NCBI RefSeq assembly: GCF_900110485.1
Contig: NZ_FODY01000035.1
Span: forward strand, 1 to 35,491
Direction: 5' to 3'
DNA length: 35,491 bases
Source of the DNA: Propionispora vibrioides
GTDB lineage: Bacteria; Bacillota; Negativicutes; Propionisporales; Propionisporaceae
Shown: positions 7,546-29,878 of the stretch, one piece after another
Layout: every line of letters starts with the position of its first letter
How positions within the stretch are numbered: the stretch's first letter is position 1
Made by a program: the position numbers and the translations under genes
Notes under the pieces: model-generated
The model's database searches: none
The model's input: only the letters and a program-made list of their open reading frames with translations
What the model was told of the DNA's origin: nothing

Positions 7546-7629
7546 TTATATTTTGGCACAATTATTTTGGTCCCGTTATTGACGGCAGGGGGCGAAGGGG
7601 TTACAATCAAATTATAATTTCATAAAATT

Positions 7630-7718
7630 GCCGAGGGAGCTCATGTTATGGGCTGAGAGTGGACTAGTAAGCACCTTACCTCTAAACCTGATCGGGATAA
7701 TGCCCGCGTAGGAAGTGT
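7630..7718 (+). ncRNA. TPP riboswitch (THI element) of the thiSGHFE operon
   Basis: The conserved parts are in order: GGGAGC at 7635-7640, GGCTGAGAG at 7650-7658, the AGCACCTTACCTC segment, ACCTGATC at 7686-7693, then GGGATAATGCCCGCGTAGGAAG to about 7715. The CTGAGA and CCTGAT boxes are the thiamine-pyrophosphate-binding core. An intrinsic terminator follows at 7738, so control is most likely by transcription termination when TPP is bound. Confidence 0.97.
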
Positions 7719-7737
7719 ATGAATTGGTTATGCATGA

Positions 7738-9973: not shown

Positions 9974-10609
9974 ATGAACAGGTTAGATGAGGCGCTTACC
10001 GCTTATGTGGGACCGGCATTGCTGCAATATATGAAAACCATGCGGATTGGAATTGCCGGAGCCGGCGGTCTTGGCTCTAATTGTGCGGCTATGCTTGTCA
10101 GGAGCGGGTTTAGCCGTTTAACAGTCGTAGATTTTGATCAAGTAGAATGCAAGAATCTCAACAGGCAGTTTTATTTTCAGCATCAGATCGGGAAAAGCAA
10201 AGTAGAGGCTTTGCGGGATAACCTGCTGGCTATTTCTCCCGACCTGGAATTGACAATGCTGCCTGTACGGATCGAACAACATAATGTGGCTGCTATATTC
10301 AAGGATTGCGAGGTCATTGTCGAAGCCCTTGATCGGGCGGATTATAAAAAGCTGTTGGTTGAGGCGTATCTCGCCAGCGGAAAGTTTATGGTAGCGGCCT
10401 CGGGTTTGGCCGGCTGGGGCGACAGTGACCGGATACGGGTTCACCGGCTCAAAGATACCTTTTATCTGGTGGGAGATTTGGTTTCCGGTATCGGCGAGGC
10501 ATTGCCGCCAATGGCGCCCTGTGTTACGATAGCGGCTGCCAAACAGGCAGATTTAATTGTGCAGTATGCAGTCGAACGGGTAAAGGGAGATGGTGATGAT
10601 GAGAAGTAA
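9974..10609 (+). CDS. thiF: ThiS adenylyltransferase ThiF (short form)
   Basis: This E1-like enzyme adenylates the ThiS C-terminus so it can receive sulfur. The nucleotide motif GAGGLGSN lies at residues 29-36, followed by VVDFDQVECKNLNRQF, where the Asp, Asn and Arg of the ThiF/MoeB/E1 family contact ATP and magnesium. At 211 residues it is the short form found with ThiS-G-H in anaerobic Firmicutes and lacks the C-terminal Cys-x-x-Cys zinc site of MoeB-type proteins. ATG 9974 is chosen for the GAGTGGAGG site directly before it and because the earlier in-frame start lies inside thiH. The end overlaps thiE. Confidence 0.92.
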   Translation: MNRLDEALTAYVGPALLQYMKTMRIGIAGAGGLGSNCAAMLVRSGFSRLTVVDFDQVECKNLNRQFYFQHQIGKSKVEALRDNLLAISPDLELTMLPVRIEQHNVAAIFKDCEVIVEALDRADYKKLLVEAYLASGKFMVAASGLAGWGDSDRIRVHRLKDTFYLVGDLVSGIGEALPPMAPCVTIAAAKQADLIVQYAVERVKGDGDDEK

Positions 10610-11243
10610 AATGGAGAATTTTTTGGCCGGCGGTATTTATGGATTAACGGCGGCCGAATATTCACTGGGGCGGTCCAATACAGAGGTGGTTGACTTATTG
10701 ATTGCCGCCGGAATTAAGGTGATTCAATACCGGGAAAAGTATAAAAAGGCCGGAGCTATGTTTGAGGAATGCCGCTATATCCGGGAAAGAACCCGGCTGG
10801 CCGGGGTTACGTTTATCGTTAACGATTTTGTCGATTTAGCGTTGGCCGCCGGTGCCGACGGAGTTCACCTCGGACAGGAGGACTTACCGCCGCAGGAAGT
10901 CCGGAAGCTGGTAGGCAACGACATGCTGATCGGCTTGTCCACTCATTCGCCGGAACAGGCCGATGCCGCGGCTAAGCTGGACATTGATTACATCGGTGTA
11001 GGGCCTATTTTCCCCACCCAAACCAAAACCGACGTGTGTGCGGCAGTAGGGTTTGCCTACTTGGATTATGTCGTTCACCAGAGTAAACTGCCGTTTGTTG
11101 CTATCGGTGGCATAAAGGAAGACAATGTGTTGTCGGTCAGCCACAGGGGGGCTCGTATGATTGCCATGGTGACCGAAATTGTCGGAGCGGCGGATATTGT
11201 AAACAAGGTAGCGCAAATCAGACGAAACCTAGGGAACCACTGA
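10596..11243 (+). CDS. thiE: Thiamine-phosphate synthase ThiE
   Basis: This enzyme couples HMP pyrophosphate with thiazole phosphate to give thiamine phosphate. The TIM-barrel family motifs are VIQYREKYK, FIVNDFVDLALAAGADGVHLGQEDLP, IGLSTHSPEQA, YIGVGPIFPTQTK and FVAIGGIKEDNV. Four in-frame starts lie at 10590, 10593, 10596 and 10599; AGGGAG ends at 10589, so 10596 or 10599 has the best spacing. The last five residues (Leu-Gly-Asn-His plus the preceding Asn) and the TGA stop come from the terminal inverted repeat of a small repeat element, so the C-terminus was probably altered by its insertion. The catalytic barrel before that point looks intact. Confidence 0.94.
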   Translation: MMRSKMENFLAGGIYGLTAAEYSLGRSNTEVVDLLIAAGIKVIQYREKYKKAGAMFEECRYIRERTRLAGVTFIVNDFVDLALAAGADGVHLGQEDLPPQEVRKLVGNDMLIGLSTHSPEQADAAAKLDIDYIGVGPIFPTQTKTDVCAAVGFAYLDYVVHQSKLPFVAIGGIKEDNVLSVSHRGARMIAMVTEIVGAADIVNKVAQIRRNLGNH

Positions 11244-11398
11244 TTAATTCACGCTGCACGTCCTGACGGAGCTTTTTCCGCTTGGCTGCGTCAGCAAAAC
11301 CTTGAAATAGGGGCCGCTATTCCTGCGGTTTTACTTTCTTGCCAAACGAAAAAATCTCTCGCCAGCCCGACAGGTTCATTTAATCAGTGGTTCCCTAG
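11229..11398. repeat. 170-bp element with perfect 17-bp terminal inverted repeats (longest copy)
   Basis: The ends are CTAGGGAACCACTGATT at 11229-11245 and its exact complement AATCAGTGGTTCCCTAG at 11382-11398. There is no open reading frame of note inside, so it resembles a MITE-like non-autonomous or extragenic element. Its core (about 11269-11363) contains GAAAAAATCTCTCGCC and pairs of inverted segments. Relative to the copy at 15920 it is inverted and carries about 80 extra bases. It overlaps the last codons and stop of thiE. Confidence 0.87.
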
Positions 11399-11482: not shown

Positions 11483-11494
11483 TTCATTTCGAAA

Positions 11495-11772
11495 AGTTAT
11501 GAAGAGGAAAAGTAGGTATATGGCAGTGGTTACAGAGAGCCAGGGTAAGATGAGAGCCTGGTACACCGTATATGCTGAAGTTCGCCTTGGAGCTGCACGC
11601 TGAATTCCTGAGTCAGGATGGTAGGTGGTGACGGAAACCTTCCCCGTTAGCAAAGAAGGCAGGTATCGGCAACTGGCCCGTACTTGACAAAGTGATCTGC
11701 TTTCAGCAGGTAACAAAGGTGGTACCGCGAGCACAGTTCTCGTCCTTTTAGAGGATGAGAACTTTTTATTTT
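11495..11772 (+). ncRNA. T-box leader of aroF, apparent Phe (TTC) specifier
   Basis: A full T-box layout is seen. The 5' stem I has GAAGAGGAAAAGTA (from about 11501), then AGAGAGCC and a middle arm ending in CTTGGAGCTGCACGCTGAA. The presumed specifier TTC is at 11605-11607. GGTAGGTGGTGACGG and CCCCGTTAGC follow in the stem I/II junction. The antiterminator T-box is AAAGGTGGTACCGCGAGC at about 11715-11732, followed by an intrinsic terminator. The specifier is read from its position after the usual GAA and matches a Phe codon, sensible for the first enzyme of aromatic amino acid synthesis. The assignment as a T-box is secure; the specifier is a reading of the primary sequence only. Confidence 0.95.
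11736..11770 (+). terminator. T-box intrinsic terminator
   Basis: The stem GTTCTCGTCC / GGATGAGAAC (10 bp, one wobble) has a short loop and is followed by TTTTTATTTT. It competes with the antiterminator formed by the T-box sequence just before it. Confidence 0.9.
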
Positions 11773-15919: not shown

Positions 15920-16010
15920 CTAGGGAACCGCTGATTTAATGAGCCTGCCGGCCTGGCGAGAGATTTTTTCGGCTGGCAAGGAAGCAAAAGCGCAATCAGT
16001 GGTTCCCTAG
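15920..16010. repeat. 91-bp copy of the CTAGGGAACC terminal-inverted-repeat element
   Basis: The left end is CTAGGGAACCGCTGATT and the right end AATCAGTGGTTCCCTAG, complementary except for one position. The interior (GAGCCTGCCGGCCTGGCGAG, then AGATTTTTTCGGCTGGCAAG) matches one end of the core of the 11229 element in the opposite orientation. It lies between the start of dapL and the end of the GltB2-type gene and contains no reading frame. Confidence 0.87.
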
Positions 16011-16017
16011 GGCAGCA

Positions 16018-16043
16018 AGCGATTTTTTCGCCGGACAAGGCAC
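16018..16043. repeat. Core fragment of the same repeat superfamily
   Basis: AGCGATTTTTTCGCCGGACA followed by AGGC lies 7 bases after the 91-bp element. It is nearly the complement-oriented match of the core at 17764-17791 (GCCTTGTCCGGCGAAAAAAT). No recognisable ends are attached. Confidence 0.55.
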
Positions 16044-16145
16044 ATTCTCGTGGGTATAATAGGGTTATGGCAAGAAAATGTAACAAAGCATGGCGGGAAA
16101 ATCATTGGTTATACGGCGTTTCCTAATGGTTGAATTCATGTTTTT

Positions 16146-17662: not shown

Positions 17663-17828
17663 TTAGGCGTGTCGACATGAGTGTTCATCACCCATCTTCC
17701 GGCGTAGTTTCCGTCGTACTGCGTTAAATTTCCTCGAAATACGTCCGGTATTTCTGCGGAAATTTGCCTTGTCCGGCGAAAAAATCCGCTCGAAATCTGA
17801 GCAAGTCAACTCGTGCCAACACGCTTTA
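17663..17828. repeat. 166-bp inverted-repeat-bounded element sharing the core of the CTAGGGAACC family
   Basis: The imperfect ends are TTAGGCGTGTCGACATGAGT on the left and the complement of TAAAGCGTGTTGGCACGAGT on the right. The inner part includes a near-palindrome at 17726-17765 (AAATTTCCTCGAAATAC and GTATTTCTGCGGAAATTT). The stretch 17706-17793 aligns by eye with 11269-11363 of the CTAGGGAACC element, sharing TTTCCG, CTGCGT, GAAATA, TATT-CTGCGG and CGAAAAAATC. It fills most of the divergent intergenic region. Confidence 0.7.
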
Positions 17829-19598: not shown

Positions 19599-19672
19599 GC
19601 GAGGGAAAAAGTAGCTGGACAAAGAAAGTAAAATACATTACAATTTTTATAGACAATCATATATGACACAAC

Positions 19673-19756
19673 ATAGCTGGGGGCGCCGTGTGGCTGAGAG
19701 GAATGATTTCCGACCCTTGGAACCTGATGTGGTTAGCACCACCGTAGGGATAGCTT
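19673..19756 (+). ncRNA. TPP riboswitch of thiC
   Basis: The conserved elements are GGGGGCGCC (19679-19687), TGGCTGAGAGG (19691-19701), CGACCCTTGGAACCTGATGT (19711-19730), GGTTAGCACCACCGTAGGGA (19731-19750). This is a near-consensus THI box. A terminator follows at 19772, as for the first riboswitch. Confidence 0.97.
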
Positions 19757-19771
19757 AGAACAATGAAATGA

Positions 19772-29807: not shown

Positions 29808-29830
29808 TTTGTAAAAAGAATATAAGAACA

Positions 29831-29878
29831 AAAAAGATGCGCCTGAGCCGCAATTGCGGTTCAGGCGCATCTTTTTTT
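29831..29878. terminator. Bidirectional terminator after nifJ
   Basis: The 23-bp nearly perfect palindrome has halves at 29831-29853 and 29854-29876 (one G-T pair), beginning AAAAAGATGCGCC and ending GGCGCATCTTTTT. T-runs are present on both strands, so it serves nifJ and the convergent small gene. Confidence 0.93.

Follow-up and report, generated by a model that had tools for sequence, protein, structure and literature searches.

Elements dispersed through the genome of Propionispora vibrioides are non-autonomous miniature transposons (MITEs), which have TA-duplicating terminal inverted repeats (TIRs) and a conserved hairpin interior. The same interior, or core, occurs with many different ends, and the Correia elements of Neisseria are among its carriers. 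The analysis started from a stretch of 35,491 nucleotides (contig NZ_FODY01000035.1), referred to below as the window, and was extended to the complete genome, its relatives and more distant bacteria.

Elements with different ends in one genome

The original prediction was that two window elements with unlike ends, designated here A and B, resemble each other over about 90 bp of their interiors. The TIR ends indeed differ, and the common core spans approximately 92 bp. The similarity of A and B is real, though modest for a single pair: direct alignment scored 30, compared with a mean of 16.4 and a maximum of 23 in 500 dinucleotide shuffles. The relationship is certain once the cores are scored with a covariance model, R1, trained on eight cores that include the A and B window cores. 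The motifs listed in the prediction (CTGCG, GAAATA, TATTyCTGCGG and CGAAAAAATC) are parts of the core that are conserved over approximately 80 divergent copies. The following features were assigned in the window:

1356-1419, no strand: A-type remnant that has lost its core (inverted repeat I3 and sequence)
2988-2991, no strand: empty TTAA site, lacking an A-type element of the sister species G002
11229-11398, plus strand: A-type element, ends CTAGGGAACCACTGATTAA
11267-11361, plus strand: hairpin core of the A element, R1 94.6 bits
15893-16146, minus strand: D-type element with the ends TAGAACCTGAATTCAATCA / TAAAAACATGAATTCAACCA, split by a nested A element
15921-16009, minus strand: nested core-deleted A element, recognized from inverted repeat I1, which it forms with the A element, and from its junctions relative to intact D copies
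16016-16107, minus strand: hairpin core of the D element, R1 86.5 bits, including 16018-16043
17664-17828, plus strand: B-type element, TIRs and TA at both ends, the subject of the finding
17700-17792, plus strand: hairpin core of the B element, R1 98.5 bits
33002-33083, no strand: C-type element that has lost its core, with the ends TAGAGCGTGTTTTCAGATTAACGG / TTTGAAAACACGCTCTA (inverted repeat I5 and sequence)

The B element has the ends GGCGTGTcGaCAtGAGT / AAAGCGTGTTGgCAcGAGT and is flanked by TA copies at 17664-17665 and 17827-17828. A genome-wide search found three more copies or partial copies of this type, and the window insertion is also present in G002. The A type is more abundant, with at least 40 near-full-length copies scored among 226 first-look candidates and 61 exact TIR matches in the genome. 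The extra core fragment noticed earlier at 16018-16043 does consist of core sequence; it is not a loose piece, however, but part of the full D core, and the junctions of the D element split by the nested A element agree with intact D copies (L041, L005 and L069). Full C copies with the core include L279, L291 and L304, and L007 is also of the C type with a core. Four end types (A, B, C and D) in a single genome therefore carry the same core.

In the complete genome, R1 identified at least 150 cores, all with E values of 1.2e-5 or lower. Those elements of this genome that have clear boundaries measure approximately 160-168 bp between their two TAs, regardless of end type, and only 1 of 110 copies lies inside an ORF. 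These small (about 165 bp), multi-copy, mostly intergenic elements with TIRs have the properties of MITEs. All end types are inserted at TA, with CTAG preferred, and the TA context is YTAR in 45 of 59 sites. For one copy, an exact empty site documents the duplication of the TA, and a second site (TTAA at 2988-2991) and the nested insertion are concordant. The empty site here reads TTTCCTGATACTAGCTTTGC, compared with the filled site ...GATACTA[GGTAAGC...GGTTACC]TAGCTTTGC in G002; the G002 insertion, where this genome reads ...GATACTAGCTTTG..., is an A element, with the TA duplicated exactly. Insertion positions are shared for 30 of 43 elements of G002. From these shared positions and the empty sites, it follows that most copies are old, and that some moved, or were cleanly lost, after the sister species split.

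TA duplication and the preference for CTAG-like sites resemble IS630/Tc1/mariner elements, since the IS630 target site is CTAG. These elements differ in having a DDE_3 transposase, of which there is none in this genome. Searches for DDE_3 in this genome and comparison of the ends of DDE_Tnp_1 elements revealed no transposase with matching ends. Candidate DDE_Tnp_1 partners in G038 and G048 have unrelated ends, and the genome's own DDE_Tnp_1 elements, located at contig ends, begin with CAGGCTGTCGAAGAACCC, i.e., other than the MITE ends. A DDE_Tnp_1 element in G021 has the ends GAAACCACTGAAAAAG, which are only loosely similar to the A ends. The partner transposase could have been lost or could be located elsewhere.

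Several observations concern the surroundings of these elements. The A element at 11229 is inserted at a CTAG where an ORF (10590-11243) ends, and it provides the stop codon of that ORF; several further copies likewise lie directly at gene ends. Rfam places a T-box leader at 11490-11750, immediately downstream of the A element, and two TPP riboswitches at 7623-7732 and 19669-19768. A near-perfect 24-bp inverted repeat with zero spacer at 29830-29877 resembles an ordinary terminator.

Structure of the core

The core is an imperfect hairpin in which the arms are variable yet complementary, and in which two loops of 3x3 mismatches are conserved. Its consensus is TTTTTCCGCC-ATA-CTGCG-TTA-[arm]-CCTTG-AAATAC-loop-GTATT-CCTGCG-[arm]-GCCTTG-TC-TGGCGAAAAAATC. 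In the outer loop, CTGCG stands opposite CCTTG; the inner loop has CCTTG opposite CTGCG. Three mismatches make up each loop, most of the closing pairs are ordinary ones, and the two loops are oppositely oriented. The three inner positions lack any Watson-Crick pair in 63 of 75 copies for the outer loop and in 59 of 64 for the inner loop.

The fold of the core is real. Covariance modelling, proposed in the original prediction as a means of detecting compensatory changes, revealed strong covariation. In the consensus fold of eight cores representing four end types, both sides had changed in 12 of 29 pairs; among 110 model-aligned copies, about ten of which are opposite-strand matches, this was the case for all 29. 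The larger alignment contained 720 cells with compensating changes, compared with 203 in shuffles, and 89.8% of its cells were paired; the corresponding figures were 64% in shuffles and 35-52% with partners slid by 1-3 columns. Because this alignment was fitted to the structure, the arms were also tested independently. Loci were picked from a scan of public genomes solely by the inner hairpin pattern, and the arms outside the pattern were scored. Pairing was 53-80% per position, compared with 26-52% when arms were exchanged between loci, and 59 distinct left 8-mers occurred among the 81 loci.

No Rfam family matched the core. A transcription terminator was considered and rejected, as the hairpin has a T-run before it and an A-run after it on both strands, and one copy is located inside a ribosomal-protein operon.

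Distribution of the core and its relation to Correia elements

R1 matched 20 of 60 genomes in a search of relatives (the window's own genome and 19 others), some of which had about 50 copies. In a phylum-wide sample, 19 of 398 genomes had matches, and the 379 others served as a negative control. Carriers include Ruminococcus flavefaciens, other Oscillospiraceae, Subdoligranulum, Vescimonas, Pseudoalteromonas and a termite-gut alphaproteobacterial bin. A second covariance model, R2, was built from 78 cores, with Neisseria left out, and had 24 matches in a Pseudoalteromonas replicon; a Streptomyces match of 13 bits was unconvincing. Viral contigs scanned for a related inner hairpin yielded two matches, one with Ruminococcus-type ends. 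The end type AGGCAACACCGCACAAAG, found in L148, L150, L171, L191 and other loci of Ruminococcus and Clostridia, is very uniform and has a modified outer loop; these ends also occur on the viral contig L346. In Vescimonas fastidiosa (NZ_AP023416; L352, 593-686), a core-bearing element lies between the genes for ribosomal proteins S14 and S8, in an essential operon.

Correia elements (CREE or NEMIS) are well studied because of their effects on gene expression in gonococci and meningococci. R2 matched 39 places in one gonococcal chromosome, with a best score of 49.5 bits, and all 10 loci inspected carry Correia-type ends. Against a gonococcal Correia element, R2 scored 25.2 bits and spanned both loops in register. 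Because Correia was picked for testing on account of its right half, it is the left half and the number of matches across the genome that count as independent evidence. Like the Propionispora elements, Correia elements are small, have TIRs and are inserted at TA, and the covariance model assigns them the same core. They differ in having the ends TATAGTGGATTAA, in being shorter (about 107 or 155 bp, PMC2229807) and in forming fewer arm pairs than other core-bearing elements. The TATAG(T/C)GGATTAA ends of Correia/NEMIS are absent from the window elements, which have other ends.

According to reviews, Correia elements are MITEs that insert at TA, contain promoters and are subject to RNase III cleavage; the long form also has an IHF site (PMC2229807, PMC10969869). 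One survey recovered a central 46-bp core of NEMIS (PMC2267715). Among the open-access papers searched, we found none that describes the core outside Neisseria, reports a core common to families with unlike ends or ties Correia to elements outside Neisseria. Other bacterial MITEs (RUP, ERIC, QMITE and others) are likewise non-coding, shorter than 200 bp, inserted at TA, mostly intergenic and equipped with TIRs. Such families are usually defined by their ends and held to be unrelated, whereas the families described here have a common interior despite their unlike ends.

Role and history of the core

Unlike ends around related cores within one genome might suggest that ends are frequently swapped onto a single core, which was the first idea of the original prediction. 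The relation between ends and cores speaks against it. In a tree of 50 cores, the cores grouped by end type, with 8 changes over all seven groups compared with a mean of 27.7 after shuffling: cores of the C type, which came from several families of the class, fell together, A grouped with E, and each of D, F and B formed a group (support inside the tree is modest because the core is short). Since cores group by end type and not by genome, recent end-swapping is unlikely. Element length is also nearly constant, and the similarity of A and C extends beyond the core, to about 25 bp from the ends (CCTGACGG[AC]GCTTTTT). We regard frequent swapping as very improbable; what is observed looks like old lineages that have diverged in their ends and retained the core.

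The alternative suggestion of the prediction, that the core is a functional unit carried by different mobile ends, fared better in that the core is a structured unit inside TA-inserting elements with TIRs. The part that has weakened is the proposal of a structured RNA, which is less likely than a role at the DNA level because G·U pairs are depleted and insertions show no bias relative to gene strand (43 sense, 39 antisense). RNA helices normally tolerate G·U pairs. In the structure-fitted alignment, with shuffles as the sole yardstick, G·U pairs made up 1.4% compared with 7.3% in shuffles, and A·C 3.7% compared with 9.7%; in the independent arms, both fell about twofold. Since G·U is rarer than A·C in the aligned set and both are reduced alike in the independent arms, pairing appears to be held equally for both strands. 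In addition, among 27 pairs of orthologous fixed copies, conserved core positions differed by 4.4%, variable positions by 5.0% and flanks by 4.6%. Conserved positions change as often as flanks, which means that the host does not protect the core where copies have settled. Together, the rarity of G·U, the absence of strand bias and the flank-like decay of fixed copies indicate that the hairpin is probably maintained as a DNA feature in moving copies, where it serves the propagation of the element itself.

The explanation that we favor, at about an even chance, is that the elements are MITEs whose core is selected in moving copies for a folded DNA form that functions in their own spread. The ends would follow whichever transposase moves a given lineage, and selection on the core would act in the copies that move. 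The folded form, either a one-strand hairpin or a cruciform, may be used in the movement or copying of the element, with the mismatch loops probably read by a candidate factor; once fixed in a host, a copy would be free to decay. As no transposase with matching ends was found, we infer the role in movement indirectly.

A core that acts as RNA, i.e., a transcribed hairpin that is processed (e.g., by RNase III) or bound and that tunes neighboring genes or limits harm, would fit the strong covariation and the strand-specific loop sequence. RNase III cleaves Correia-containing transcripts (reviewed in PMC10969869), so an RNA role does exist in at least one member; the Vescimonas element, located between two same-strand ribosomal-protein genes, is for that reason probably transcribed and not a terminator. 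However, the depletion of G·U, the unbiased orientation, the lack of Rfam matches and the fact that the core at fixed loci evolves no slower make a general RNA function improbable, in our estimate about one of the lesser possibilities. We consider slightly less probable still that history alone accounts for the core: the MITE lineages would be old, template-switch repair would keep their arms complementary, and the core would be visible only through descent and horizontal spread. Template switching can restore the match between inverted repeats even in the absence of selection, fixed copies do evolve as their flanks do, and the grouping of cores by end type is what common descent predicts. Quasi-palindromes self-correct, however, and such correction should erase mismatches, yet both loops are mismatched in about 84-92% of divergent copies; these retained mismatches are the sole argument that template switching does not explain everything. 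The history-alone account also has to accommodate ends that are read by a transposase and have diverged past recognition while the loops have not. The CTGCG...CCTTG blocks can also be read as a direct repeat, CTGCG-N-CCTTG, with a spacing of about 35 bp, and might be double-stranded sites for a nucleoid protein or transposase, the arms being a mutational by-product. The long form of Correia binds IHF (PMC2229807), though in a different segment from these blocks. A plain double-stranded site would not need the arm complementarity seen at most positions across very divergent copies, and we view this reading as unlikely, more so than the two preceding ones.

Catalogues of bacterial MITEs have been based on the ends, and the families have been regarded as unrelated and host-specific. 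While MITEs are a known kind of element, the shared core is new relative to the open-access papers searched, and the seemingly separate elements of Propionispora, Neisseria, Clostridia and Pseudoalteromonas appear to be one widespread superfamily. A broader proposal, which we hold tentatively and at somewhat less than even probability, is a single ancient cross-phylum MITE superfamily defined by a DNA-hairpin core, in which a conserved candidate factor would read the loops, the transposase would be changed via the ends, and Correia would be one branch. A folded core shared across Bacillota and Pseudomonadota would unite many MITEs with Correia elements, and the question of what MITE interiors do would become a defined one, testable via the two mismatch loops. 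The covariance model also offers a practical route to annotation where end-based searches fail.

Individual loci vary in how they change. The D copy L041 is identical over its full length to L069, in another species, with flanks several percent apart, whereas the window's B element shows drift and differs much more than its nearest flanks.
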